A DNA stretch of 54,433 nucleotides from contig JANXSX010000149.1 in the NCBI GenBank assembly GCA_025356475.1, positions 1 to 54,433 on the forward strand. The letters are read 5' to 3'. Under the pieces are notes generated by a model. It worked only from the letters and a program-made list of their open reading frames with translations, ran no database searches and was not told the origin of the DNA. Made by a program: the position numbers and the translations under genes. Every line of letters begins with the position of its first letter. Within the stretch, counting starts at the first letter, position 1. The DNA comes from Isosphaeraceae bacterium (GTDB lineage Bacteria > Planctomycetota > Planctomycetia > Isosphaerales > Isosphaeraceae). Shown piece by piece: positions 28,833 to 33,730 of this stretch.

Positions 28833-28965
28833 TCTGGCGGGATGGATCTGATCGATCGCCTCGTTTTTTCGAGCGGGACTTTGCTTGGCGAGTTCCGCTA
28901 CTACAATGGCAGACATTCGCACCTTGAACCGACTTGGTTCCCCACGGACGCGAGAACCCGACACG

Positions 28966-29958
28966 ATGCCGATCATTGAGGCTCAAGGCCTGACCAAGAC
29001 CTATAAGGTTTTTCAGAAGAAGGATGGACTGTTAGGAGCCTTGCGCGGCCTCTACCACCGGGAATACAAAGAGGTCAAAGCTGTGGACGACGTCAGCTTC
29101 ACCATTGAGCCCGGCGAGATGGTCGCCTTCCTCGGTCCCAATGGAGCGGGTAAGACGACAACTCTGAAGATGCTCTCAGGGCTGATCTACCCAACTTCTG
29201 GGACGGCCCAGGTTCTCGACTTCCTCCCCTGGAAGCGTGAGGACGAATTCCGGCGCAAGTTTGCACTCGTCATGGGGCAGAAGAATCAACTGTGGTGGGA
29301 CCTCCCCGCCGCAGATAGTTTTCAGCTCCACCGCGAAATCTATTCGCTTCCACTCGCGGATTTCGAGAAGACCCTGGCCGATCTGACCGAGTTGCTCGGG
29401 GTTCAGAAGTTGACGCGGCAGGCCGTCCGCGAACTATCGCTCGGCGAGCGAATGAAAATGGAGCTGATCGCCGCACTGCTGCATCAGCCCGAGGTCCTCC
29501 TGCTTGACGAGCCGACGATCGGTCTCGACGTCGTGGCACAGGTCGCCATTCAGAAGTGTCTGCGGGAGTATCATAGTCAGCGAGGCGTGACGATGCTCCT
29601 GACAAGTCACTATATGCGGGATATCGAAGCCCTTTGTGATCGAGTCCTGGTGATCACGCACGGCAAGCTGGTCTATGATGGCCCCCTTGTCGGTTTGACC
29701 GACCGGTTCGGGGCTGAGAAGCTGGTCAAGTTGTTGTTCGACGGACCCGCACCGAGCGACCTGGGGCGATTCGGCGAAGTGACGAAAGTCGAGGGTCCCA
29801 CGGTCGATCTGAAGGTGGAACGGACACGCGTCGCCGAGGTCCTAGGCGCGATCCTTGACGCTTACAATATCGTCGATGTCAGCGTTCAGGACCCGCCTTT
29901 GGAGCAGACGATCGCCAAGGTCTTCCAGCAAGCGGAGCCTGCCAATGTCGACGCTTGA
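28966..29958 (+). CDS. ABC-2 exporter ATP-binding protein
   Basis: 330 residues from ATG 28966 (MPIIEAQGLTKTYKVF). Walker A is FLGPNGAGKTTTLKM, the signature is LSLGERMKMELIAALL, and Walker B with the D-loop is EVLLLDEPTIGLD; the H-loop His lies in LLTSHYM. The C-terminal 80 residues form the accessory domain found in NatA/CcmA-type exporters. Its stop overlaps the first permease start by 14 bp. The partner permeases are of the ABC2_membrane_6 type, so the system is probably a lipid, antibiotic or ion exporter; the substrate is not known. Confidence 0.9.
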   Translation: MPIIEAQGLTKTYKVFQKKDGLLGALRGLYHREYKEVKAVDDVSFTIEPGEMVAFLGPNGAGKTTTLKMLSGLIYPTSGTAQVLDFLPWKREDEFRRKFALVMGQKNQLWWDLPAADSFQLHREIYSLPLADFEKTLADLTELLGVQKLTRQAVRELSLGERMKMELIAALLHQPEVLLLDEPTIGLDVVAQVAIQKCLREYHSQRGVTMLLTSHYMRDIEALCDRVLVITHGKLVYDGPLVGLTDRFGAEKLVKLLFDGPAPSDLGRFGEVTKVEGPTVDLKVERTRVAEVLGAILDAYNIVDVSVQDPPLEQTIAKVFQQAEPANVDA

Positions 29959-30796
29959 ACTGGGAGCGCCACGGTCGATGTACCGATCAGTTCGCAAGTA
30001 TGCCAAGATCTATCGAGCGTCGCTCGTTGAGCGAATGGCCTACCGGAGCGACTTCCTACTCGGTACTGTCCTGCGATTTCTGCCGATGATCACCACGATT
30101 TTGCTTTGGCAGGCGATCTACAAGGGGGGAGAGGACTCCACCCAGGCTGGCTTCCGGCTCAACGAGATGATTGCTTACTTGCTGCTCACCAACATCAGTC
30201 GGATCTTCTCAAGCATGCCGGGGCTTGCTGGCGGAATCGCTCGTGATATCCGCGAAGGAACGCTGAAGAAATACCTGATTCAACCGATCGACATGATCGG
30301 ATACCTTGTGTCTTACAGGATGGCCCATAAGACCGCTTATGTGGTCATCTCAGCCTTGCCGTATGCCCTGCTCTTTTATGTGTGTCGAGGTTTCTTCGAC
30401 ACCGGTTGGCCAGATCTGCTCACCTGGGTGGCGTACTTGGTCTCGCTGATTCTGGCTTTTTTTGTGGGGTTCTATTTTGAGGTCTGCGTGGGCATGGTTG
30501 GGTTTTGGTTCCTCGAAGTCACGTCGCTTCTCTATATTGTCATGACGTTAAACTTCTTCATTTCCGGCCACATGCTGCCGCTCGACTTCTTGCCGCCGTT
30601 CTGGGCCAGTTTTTTGAAGGCTTTGCCGTTTCAATATATGGCTTACTTTCCGGCTGTCGTTGTGCTTGGGAAAGTTCGTGGCCAAGACCTTGCGATCGGC
30701 CTACTCGGCGAGTTGTTCTGGGCGATCTTTTTCATGATGCTAGCGCGTACCCTCTATACCCGTGGCCTGCGGCGCTACAGTGCTTTTGGAGGATGA
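29945..30796 (+). CDS. ABC-2 family permease, first subunit
   Basis: 283 residues from ATG 29945, overlapping the ATPase gene. About six transmembrane helices are visible. The motif ARDIREGTLKKYLIQPIDMIGYLVSYRMAHK after the second pair of helices is characteristic of DUF990/ABC2_membrane_6 permeases, where the REGxLxxxLxxPI segment contacts the ATPase. It shares fold and motif pattern with the next gene (TGDLDFLLLKPIDEQFLIT), so the two form a heterodimer. Confidence 0.85.
   Translation: MSTLELGAPRSMYRSVRKYAKIYRASLVERMAYRSDFLLGTVLRFLPMITTILLWQAIYKGGEDSTQAGFRLNEMIAYLLLTNISRIFSSMPGLAGGIARDIREGTLKKYLIQPIDMIGYLVSYRMAHKTAYVVISALPYALLFYVCRGFFDTGWPDLLTWVAYLVSLILAFFVGFYFEVCVGMVGFWFLEVTSLLYIVMTLNFFISGHMLPLDFLPPFWASFLKALPFQYMAYFPAVVVLGKVRGQDLAIGLLGELFWAIFFMMLARTLYTRGLRRYSAFGG
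30788..30792 (+). promoter_or_regulatory. RBS selecting the second permease start
   Basis: GGAGG is directly followed by ATG 30793 (no spacer) but lies nine bases before ATG 30802. The second ATG is therefore the better start for the downstream permease gene. Confidence 0.6.
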
Positions 30797-30801
30797 GAGC
30801 G

Positions 30802-31614
30802 ATGGTCGCAAGCCTCATAAAGTACGCCCGGATGTGGGCTTCGCTGGGAAGATACACGCTCGCTCGTGAACTCTCGTTCCGAGGCAACTTCCTCGTCAAA
30901 ATCTCGGTTGAGATTCTCTGGCTGTTCATCCTGATCGCGTTCTTCAGCACCGTCTTTGGCCGAACGAAGTCGATCGCAGGCTGGGACGAATGGCAGTACA
31001 TGTTCTTTGTGGGCTGCTTTTTCGCACTTAACGGGCTGATTGAAACCCTCTTCCTTGATAACTGCAACGAGTTCGCCGAGCTTGTTCGTACGGGTGACCT
31101 CGACTTCCTCCTCCTCAAACCCATCGACGAGCAATTCCTGATCACCTGCCGACGGATTGATTGGGGATGTGCGCTCAATATCCCGATGGGATTCGGCGTG
31201 ATGGGATACTCGCTCTATAAGATAGGTGGACCGGTTGATCCCTTGTCGATCCCGATCTTTTTGATGACTTTCGTCTCAGGCGCAGCGATCGCTTACAGCT
31301 TCATGCTGACTTTGACCTCGCTCTCCGTCTGGATGGTTCGGAACCAGTCACTCATGGAGATGTGGTGGCTCTTTTCGAGCCTGGCACGGTATCCTAGGGA
31401 GATTTTTGTCGGCACATGGGCGAGCCCCATTGGCGTCTTCTTCACGTTCTTCTTGCCGATCCTGCTTGTCGTGAATGTCCCTTCACAAGCGATGGTCGGG
31501 CTTCTCGACTGGCGAATGGTCGGGTTCACCCTGATCGCGACCGTCCTCTGTCTCGGTGCAAGCCGAGCGTTTTTTCGTTTTGCCCTCAAGTCTTACCGCA
31601 GCGCGAGCAGTTGA
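30802..31614 (+). CDS. ABC-2 family permease, second subunit
   Basis: 270 residues from ATG 30802 (MVASLIKYARMW); ATG 30793, which overlaps the previous stop as ATGA, is the alternative. Six hydrophobic segments and the VRTGDLDFLLLKPIDEQF motif identify the same permease family as the preceding gene. Only six bases separate its stop from the RsmG-TrmH fusion gene, so the exporter operon continues into RNA modification. Confidence 0.85.
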   Translation: MVASLIKYARMWASLGRYTLARELSFRGNFLVKISVEILWLFILIAFFSTVFGRTKSIAGWDEWQYMFFVGCFFALNGLIETLFLDNCNEFAELVRTGDLDFLLLKPIDEQFLITCRRIDWGCALNIPMGFGVMGYSLYKIGGPVDPLSIPIFLMTFVSGAAIAYSFMLTLTSLSVWMVRNQSLMEMWWLFSSLARYPREIFVGTWASPIGVFFTFFLPILLVVNVPSQAMVGLLDWRMVGFTLIATVLCLGASRAFFRFALKSYRSASS

Positions 31615-31620
31615 ACCATC

Positions 31621-33087
31621 ATGACCCCCAGTAAAACCGCCTTGGGCACTATCCTTCGTCATTGCGGAATAGTTCTCCCCGCCGATCAGCTCGAAAAGCT
31701 CTGGGAATACCACGGAATTCTCCGCGCGGCGAATGCCGAACTGAATCTGACACGCATTCATAACTTCGAAAACATGGTGCTTAAGCACTATGTCGACAGC
31801 CTTCTTGTGCTCAAGTTCATCGAGCTCCCATCCCCCTTGGTTGATATGGGGAGCGGACCCGGCCTCCCGGGCATCCCCTTGAAAATCGTTCGGCCTGAGA
31901 TTTCGATGATCCTGGCGGAGCCGCGTGGAGCTCGCGCCGAGTTTCTTCAAGAGGTCGTGAATCGGCTGAATCTTCCCAATTGCGAAGTCTATGCAGGCAA
32001 GGTCGGAGCCCGTTTCCCTCGCCAGGTCAAAGGGGTGATCACTCGCGCAGTTGCGACAATTCCGGAGACCTTGGAGCGAGTTGCTGCCTGTCTGGAGCCA
32101 GGTGGTCAAATGATATTCATGAAAGGACCTGAGTGTAGTGACGAGGTCGAGGAGGCGAGTCGAACTCAAGGCGATTACTTCAAGTTCGTCGCCGACCACG
32201 CCTACTCGATCCCAGGGACCACTCACGACCGTCGCCTGGTGATCTACGAACGGCTCGACTCCCCTGCCCCCAATGCCCCCGTTGTTCCGCTTGGACCCGT
32301 CCGAGAAGTGACAAGTGATGCGAACCCGACGTTCAAGCTGGCCCGCGACCTGCTGACGGGACGGGGTATCCGTAAGCAAGGTCAAGCATTGATCTCAGGT
32401 TCACGGATTGTCGCGGAGGTTCTCGAACGCTATCGCGATCAGGTCGAGGCCTGGGTGACAAACTCGACGGGTCCGGCCCCGCCCGTCGAGGCAGGTTCGC
32501 TGACTTGGCTGCGGCTTTCGGACCCCCTCTTCGCAGAACTCGACGTCTCCGGAACAAAGTCACCCCTCCTGATGGTCCGGACCCCGGAGATGCTGGCGTG
32601 GGATCCGACCGACTGGCCGGAGGGTTGTACCCTTTTCGTCCCCTTCCAAGATCCTGAGAACGTCGGGGCTGTGATCCGCTCGGCGGCGGCGTTGGGGGCG
32701 GCTCAGGTCGTGCTCTTACGCGAAGCCGCCCACCCTTTTCATCCCAAGGCTGCGCGGGCGGCAGGGCCGGCTCTGTTTCAGATTCCTCTGCGTCAAGGTC
32801 CATCAATCCGGGACCTCGCTTCGGCTGAAGTCCCATTACTCGCGCTTGACGCCGATGGGGAAGATCTGACGAAGGCGAGCTTCCCCGATCGATTCGGACT
32901 GGTCGTTGGAGTCGAAGGACCTGGCCTTCCCGAGACGCTTCGGACCGGGCGAAGGCTGAGGATTCCCATCGATTCCAGGGTGGAATCACTCAACGCCGCG
33001 ACCTCGGCCGCCATCGCACTTTATGAGATGAGTCGAGCCCGGGTGCCGCTCACAAGCCCTTCCTCGCCTCTCGAACCAGATGCGTGA
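31621..33087 (+). CDS. Fusion of 16S rRNA m7G methyltransferase RsmG with a SpoU/TrmH rRNA/tRNA methyltransferase
   Basis: 488 residues, two enzymes in one chain. Residues 1-215 are RsmG (GidB): ELNLTRIHNFENMVLKHYVDS, SAM loop VDMGSGPGLPGIPLKIVRPE, VITRAVATIPETLE and MIFMKGPE. Residues 235-475 are a SpoU-family SPOUT enzyme: an N-terminal substrate domain (LTGRGIRKQGQALISGSRIV), motif 1 PENVGAVIRSAAALGA, motif 2 VGVEGPGLP and motif 3 RIPIDSRVESLNAATSAAIAL. RsmG makes m7G527 in 16S rRNA; SpoU enzymes methylate 2'-O positions. No stop or frameshift lies between them, and the linker (DSPAPNAPVVPLGPV) is Pro-rich. The 3' end overlaps convergent moaB by 38 bp. Confidence 0.88.
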   Translation: MTPSKTALGTILRHCGIVLPADQLEKLWEYHGILRAANAELNLTRIHNFENMVLKHYVDSLLVLKFIELPSPLVDMGSGPGLPGIPLKIVRPEISMILAEPRGARAEFLQEVVNRLNLPNCEVYAGKVGARFPRQVKGVITRAVATIPETLERVAACLEPGGQMIFMKGPECSDEVEEASRTQGDYFKFVADHAYSIPGTTHDRRLVIYERLDSPAPNAPVVPLGPVREVTSDANPTFKLARDLLTGRGIRKQGQALISGSRIVAEVLERYRDQVEAWVTNSTGPAPPVEAGSLTWLRLSDPLFAELDVSGTKSPLLMVRTPEMLAWDPTDWPEGCTLFVPFQDPENVGAVIRSAAALGAAQVVLLREAAHPFHPKAARAAGPALFQIPLRQGPSIRDLASAEVPLLALDADGEDLTKASFPDRFGLVVGVEGPGLPETLRTGRRLRIPIDSRVESLNAATSAAIALYEMSRARVPLTSPSSPLEPDA

Positions 33088-33565
33088 TCTCGGGCAAGAT
33101 GACCTTATTCATGGCGAGCTCGACCGCCGCTCGCGAGCCGGGCATCGTCAAGAGAATCAATGACCCCATCACTCCGCCGATAGCCCGGCTCAACATGCAC
33201 GCAGTACCGATCTCGGCATAGCTGAGCATTCGGAAGAGTTCTCCGTAGCCGGGCATCGTCTTGTCGAGCAGGGCCGCAACCGTCTCGTAAGTCTGGTCTC
33301 GCTGGGTGACGCCGGTCCCTCCCGTCATGAGGACTGCATGGAGATCGGTTCGGGCCCGGTAGGACTCCAGGAGTGGGGTCATCACTGCCGGCTCGTCGGG
33401 GACGATCGCCCGCTCCAAGATTACGTGGCCGGCCTGCTCGGCAAGCTTGATAATCAATGCCCCGGATGTATCCGTTTCGAGCGTCCGAGTATCGGAAACG
33501 GTGACCACGGCCAGGTTCAATGAGGACAGGGCCTCGGCGCGATGTTCAGCAACAGACTGACTCAT
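33050..33565 (-). CDS. moaB: Molybdopterin adenylyltransferase/MoaB-type protein
   Basis: 171 residues from ATG 33565. MoCF-domain landmarks are LAVVTVSDTRTLETDTSG, HAVLMTGGTGVTQRDQTYE and TMPGSRAAVELAMNKVILPE. MoaB/Mog activates molybdopterin by adenylation for molybdate insertion. Length and the SDTR motif favour MoaB over MogA. It is alone on the minus strand, converging on the RsmG-TrmH gene with a 38-bp overlap of the 3' ends. No other molybdenum-cofactor gene is near. Confidence 0.9.
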   Translation of the reverse strand: MSQSVAEHRAEALSSLNLAVVTVSDTRTLETDTSGALIIKLAEQAGHVILERAIVPDEPAVMTPLLESYRARTDLHAVLMTGGTGVTQRDQTYETVAALLDKTMPGYGELFRMLSYAEIGTACMLSRAIGGVMGSLILLTMPGSRAAVELAMNKVILPEITHLVREARKGL

Positions 33566-33730
33566 GTCCGTAAATACTCCAAGCTGCGTAAACGTCGCGG
33601 ATTGCAACTTCTACCAAATGGCCTGACCGCAGGGCGTTCGGCTTGCGGGGCGACGTCGCCCCATCCTACGATGAATAGTGCGCAGTTTGGGAGCGTCTTC
33701 TGTTTGGTGAGTTGACGTGGAGAAACCAAA

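Follow-up and report, generated by a model that had tools for sequence, protein, structure and literature searches.

Does the gene described here encode two rRNA methyltransferases in one chain, and, if so, on what would they act? The question is raised by an open reading frame in the window, a stretch of 54,433 nucleotides from an Isosphaeraceae bacterium (Planctomycetota; assembly GCA_025356475.1, contig JANXSX010000149.1). The frame runs from ATG to stop on the forward strand (31621–33087), uninterrupted through 488 codons, and yields a 488-amino acid protein that the first-pass annotation, made from the sequence alone, described as a fusion of RsmG with a SpoU/TrmH methyltransferase.

Domain architecture and predicted structure

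The protein, delineated as an RsmG–SPOUT fusion from the reading frame, Pfam, its family-wide conservation and the TIGR00138 match, consists of three domains and a linker, all on the forward strand. Residues 1–215 (31621–32265) form an RsmG-type Rossmann m7G methyltransferase domain, recognized by the Pfam GidB match, fold match and motif conservation; a linker of residues 216–226 (32266–32298) follows, with partly low pLDDT and a length that varies among relatives. The L30e-like RNA-binding domain (approximately residues 227–330; 32299–32610) is assigned from the fold alignment with RlmP and RlmR over residues 226–477, and the SPOUT (SpoU) 2'-O-methyltransferase domain (approximately residues 331–474; 32611–33042), with motifs 1–3 intact, from the Pfam SpoU_methylase match. 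Both Pfam matches are far above the cut-off (GidB, residues 23–181, E 4e-37; SpoU_methylase, residues 341–468, E 9e-25), and the protein also passes the RsmG model TIGR00138 (rsmG_gidB; 125.7 bits against a cut-off of 99.5). Among proteins of solved structure, the first 220 residues match the RsmG of Escherichia coli and Thermus thermophilus, and residues 220–474 match RlmR and RlmP, the 23S rRNA 2'-O-methyltransferases, whose N-terminal domain is L30-like (PMC12123411). The co-occurrence of RsmG and SpoU motifs in one 488-residue frame is thus borne out by the reading frame, the Pfam matches and the residue alignments alike. Of the label ‘SpoU/TrmH', the first part stands, all three SpoU motifs being present, and the second does not, given the L30e-like N-domain and the affinity to RlmP and RlmR.

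The AlphaFold2 model, built from 25 fused sequences, has a mean pLDDT of 90.4, with values below 50 only at residues 219–223 and in the C-terminal tail, and a pTM of 0.57; it thus comprises two confidently predicted domains whose mutual placement is of low confidence. The predicted folds of the halves are of the RsmG and RlmP/RlmR types, respectively. The N-terminal domain of the model aligns with the RsmG structures 1xdz (Z 25.3, rmsd 2.8, 224 residues aligned), 3g8b (Z 24.7) and 1jsx (Z 22.8, rmsd 2.3, 192 residues aligned). Residues 226–477 align with RlmP 7qiu (Z 23.7, rmsd 3.0, 237 residues aligned), 5l0z (Z 23.2) and RlmR 9muj (Z 23.1, rmsd 3.3, 245 residues aligned), these three being tied, and with 9h1k from the same RlmP/RlmR set (Z approximately 23).

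Two rRNA methyltransferases in one chain have a precedent in RlmKL, a fused enzyme responsible for 23S m7G2069 and m2G2445 (see the references listed in PMC4119055). Searches of the open-access literature yielded no account of an RsmG–SPOUT fusion, in agreement with the first-pass view of the architecture as unusual. In RlmKL, both enzymes are of the Rossmann type, whereas here a Rossmann N7-guanine enzyme is combined with a knotted ribose 2'-O enzyme.

Conservation of the fusion

A gene of this kind could arise as an artefact, two adjacent genes being joined by a frameshift or an assembly error. Such an origin gains some colour from two relatives in which the coding region is split between frames: in Singulisphaera sp. 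GP187 (L033/L085), the break lies inside the SPOUT half and, in Desulfosarcina cetonica JCM 12296 (L037), near the linker, each reflecting either a sequencing error or real decay. Against it stands the occurrence of one-frame, full-length matches in nearly all the genomes of the family and across three phyla, in isolates and metagenome-assembled genomes (MAGs) alike. The fusion is present in all 45 Isosphaeraceae genomes examined, with both halves in one frame in 44, some of which have a longer linker or a stop codon near the end of the match; in the remaining one (G331), it is divided between frames. A second planctomycete family also carries it (G215 and G251, loci L105 and L106), as do 18 of the 297 sampled genomes (∼6%) of Desulfobacterota, the phylum of Desulfosarcina widdelii, and 2 of the 240 genomes in the class of a Kiritimatiellae MAG (Kiritimatiellota). 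A scan of one genome per species recovers the fusion in Singulisphaera, Aquisphaera, Paludisphaera, Desulfacinum, Desulfosarcina and others; three further planctomycetes (G164, G025 and G153) have long RsmG frames, but BLAST detects only the RsmG half in them. Because the fusion is conserved across Isosphaeraceae and recurs in other phyla, an artefactual origin is so improbable that it can be set aside. Neither of the refuting observations named in the first-pass annotation is made: there is no frameshift joining two genes, and it is not the case that all close relatives have separate genes.

Downstream of a full fusion gene, one locus (L018:8424–9164; also G313:C66:53943–54203) contains a fragment that is approximately 60% identical to residues 375–459 of the SPOUT half and is apparently a truncated partial duplicate.

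The RsmG half

The RsmG motifs of the fusion protein are D75xGxGxGxPG, R142-A143 and K168-G169. In nearly all of 48 fusion-type RsmG sequences, N38, N42-L-T44, D59, D75xG77xG79xG81xP83, R142-A143 and K168-G169 are retained. This conservation bears on the possibility that only the SPOUT half is catalytic, with the RsmG half acting as a module for RNA binding or targeting: D75, G77, G79, G81, P83, R142, K168 and G169 are invariant in the 48 sequences, which is unexpected in a decayed domain. The SPOUT half does occur on its own in several lineages and is, accordingly, the more independent part of the protein, but this possibility appears quite improbable.

The resemblance to RsmG (GidB; the 16S rRNA m7G527 enzyme) covers the fold, the SAM motif, the invariant residues and the score over the model cut-off. 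The fusion differs from RsmG in the attached SPOUT enzyme, in its frequent occurrence alongside an ordinary RsmG, in a distinct residue pattern and in its phylogeny. The fusion clade has near-invariant residues of its own (W28, H31, R35, R45, K55, Y57, R102, R105 and R204) and lacks K104, which occurs in 95% of the stand-alone RsmGs used for comparison (20 sequences). In the tree, the fused RsmG halves form a deep clade on a long stem (support 100/99, branch 1.43), and the ordinary RsmGs from Planctomycetota, Desulfobacterota and E. coli fall outside it; being separate from the stand-alone RsmGs of their own phyla, they do not behave as orthologues of these and, judging by the tree, constitute a deep paralogous clade. 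This position, together with the missing K104, would allow a changed target for the RsmG half. The clade includes a single stand-alone gene, that of genome G594, which encodes the fusion-type RsmG (L069:3110–3835) and the SPOUT protein (L070:2702–3616) as separate genes on different contigs, along with an ordinary RsmG (L071).

The SPOUT half

The three SPOUT motifs of the fusion protein are represented by N347/G349/R353, G430/E432/G435 and S456-L457-N458, and none of these residues varies among 44 fused SPOUT halves. In RlmR, alanine mutants of N122, R128 and N238 have 0–10% activity (PMC12123411); by alignment, these residues would correspond to N347, R353 and N458 of the fusion protein. At R379-A380 and E455, the fusion follows the RlmP pattern more than that of RlmR.

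In a careful 35-row tree, the SPOUT halves group with their stand-alone sister proteins in a clade of 100/100 support that excludes RlmB, RlmP and RlmR. Grouping with RlmP (p 0.20) or with RlmR (p 0.40) is not rejected by the AU test, but the free trees separate them. In the trees, the SPOUT half is thus a member of its own clade, which is nearest to RlmP and RlmR, the L30e-SPOUT enzymes of the 23S A-loop type, rather than to RlmB or TrmH. What it shares with RlmP (YsgA, Gm2553) and RlmR (Um2552) is the L30e-like N-domain in front of the SPOUT domain, and these are the nearest solved structures; it differs from them by an identity of only 25–27%, by the separate, well-supported clade and by the N-terminal RsmG domain. 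With RlmB (Gm2251) and TrmH (Gm18), it has in common membership of the SPOUT superfamily and the three SpoU motifs.

Three other identities were considered for this half and rejected: RlmB (TIGR00186, 58.8 bits against a cut-off of 160.15, with RlmB in another clade of the tree), TrmH (PRK11081, 17.5 against 227) and the TsnR/NshR thiostrepton-resistance methyltransferase (NF000477, 36.9 against 425).

Fused and separate forms

The SPOUT half is encoded alone in eight Desulfobacterota relatives and in several Kiritimatiellota, so coupling of the two activities is not obligatory. When stand-alone members are added to the SPOUT tree, genes from Desulfobacterota, Kiritimatiellota and Azospirillum interleave with the fused ones, and the alternation between the fused and unfused states involves at least six changes on a poorly resolved backbone; constraining all the fused halves to one clade gives a borderline p-AU of 0.046. 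This pattern may equally reflect fission, several losses of the RsmG half or the halves having been joined more than once.

Gene neighborhood

The fusion gene is preceded by an ABC-2 exporter, an ATPase with two ABC2_membrane_6 permeases (28885–31614, forward strand); the stop codon of the adjacent permease ends at 31614 and the fusion starts at 31621, which confirms the six-base spacing noted in the first-pass annotation. On the opposite strand, a convergent MoCF_biosynth (MogA-like) frame (33050–33607) shares 38 bases with the 3' end of the fusion gene and adjoins it in most Isosphaeraceae loci with enough flanking sequence. A matching permease ends within approximately 200 bases upstream of the fusion in five loci (L005, L006, L009, L019 and L020), lies 2–6 kb away in three (L007, L013 and L033) and was not found within the available flanks of L008, L010–L012 and L016–L018. 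A general functional link with the exporter is not supported, as several relatives show no matching permease in the available upstream flank, and the adjacency is probably incidental.

Other methyltransferases and the candidate targets

The two sites of the fusion protein are predicted to be active, and the protein is probably a bifunctional rRNA methyltransferase that introduces both m7G and a 2'-O-methyl group. The N-terminal Rossmann domain would transfer a methyl group from SAM to the N7 of guanine, and the C-terminal L30e-SPOUT domain would methylate a ribose 2'-OH of 23S rRNA. Dimerization would proceed via the SPOUT knot, and the assembly predicted is a homodimer of the SPOUT domain with two tethered RsmG domains.

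The complement of other methyltransferases in the carrier genomes bears on the choice of targets. A search of the source genome, along the lines suggested in the first-pass annotation, finds no second GidB match and only one other SpoU protein, which is TrmL-like; no RlmB exceeds the cut-off and nothing RlmE-like scores above 23 bits. The same picture extends to the family: no second RsmG was found in Isosphaeraceae, leaving the fusion as the only RsmG-type protein, and an RlmE-like protein above the weak background is absent from all 13 genomes tested, the FtsJ matches in the family being likewise weak. Because of homology and because the usual enzymes are absent, the default, and likeliest, targets in Isosphaeraceae would be G527 of 16S rRNA for the RsmG half and a 23S A-loop nucleotide around 2552/2553 for the SPOUT half, although this exact pair is offered tentatively, the balance being somewhat against its holding in both parts.

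The situation is different in Desulfobacterota, where at least 13 genomes contain the fusion together with an ordinary RsmG (G338, G340, G341, G342, G537, G636, G617, G494, G577, G597, G514, G438 and G563). All 11 of these that were tested also have RlmE, and RlmB exceeds the cut-off in all four tested (G338, G340, G617 and G537). Since an ordinary RsmG and RlmE are present, the canonical targets would be redundant in those Desulfobacterota. Elsewhere, seven carriers outside Isosphaeraceae lack both RsmG and RlmE (G339, G468, G423, G389, G352, G215 and G251), and three have RlmE but no ordinary RsmG (G583, G543 and G623). The carrier genomes are mutually related, which makes these counts non-independent.

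In the class of the source genome, 15 of the 27 sampled genomes, most of them near complete, are without any RsmG match, although RsmG counts among the highly conserved rRNA methyltransferases (PMC4119055); m7G527 may therefore be dispensable there.

These observations allow another assignment, under which the RsmG half is retargeted and both halves modify neighboring 23S nucleotides in the manner of RlmKL, with m7G527 left to an ordinary RsmG and absent in Isosphaeraceae. The coexistence with ordinary RsmG and the deep separate clade with its near-invariant W28, H31, R35, R45, Y57, R102, R105 and R204 are in line with such a change, as is the loss of m7G527 that appears to be tolerated in related genomes; however, the RsmG invariants are kept, the protein scores above the RsmG equivalog cut-off and the sole RsmG of Isosphaeraceae is the fusion itself. 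On balance, retargeting is rather unlikely, and the bifunctional enzyme described above, with G527 and the A-loop as its tentative default substrates in Isosphaeraceae, is the preferred reading.

Implications

Because the RsmG model cut-off is passed, the protein is likely to be annotated as plain ‘RsmG', a label that conceals both the presence of another enzyme and the status of the RsmG half as a paralogue. It is rare for rRNA methyltransferases to be fused, and such cases offer hints as to which modification steps co-occur in ribosome assembly. In this one, two unrelated folds and chemistries are joined, and the arrangement, fixed across Isosphaeraceae, is met again in two further phyla at least. 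The coordinated action of the two putative activities on the ribosome, which the first-pass annotation proposed, is plausible. It is conceivable, if not likely, that the fusions make up a two-headed family in which a retargeted RsmG paralogue introduces a new m7G, for instance close to the SPOUT site in 23S rRNA, so that N7 and ribose 2'-O methylation would be coupled in one step of ribosome assembly. In the culturable Singulisphaera and Desulfosarcina, the fusion leads to a testable prediction, namely, linked rRNA modifications.
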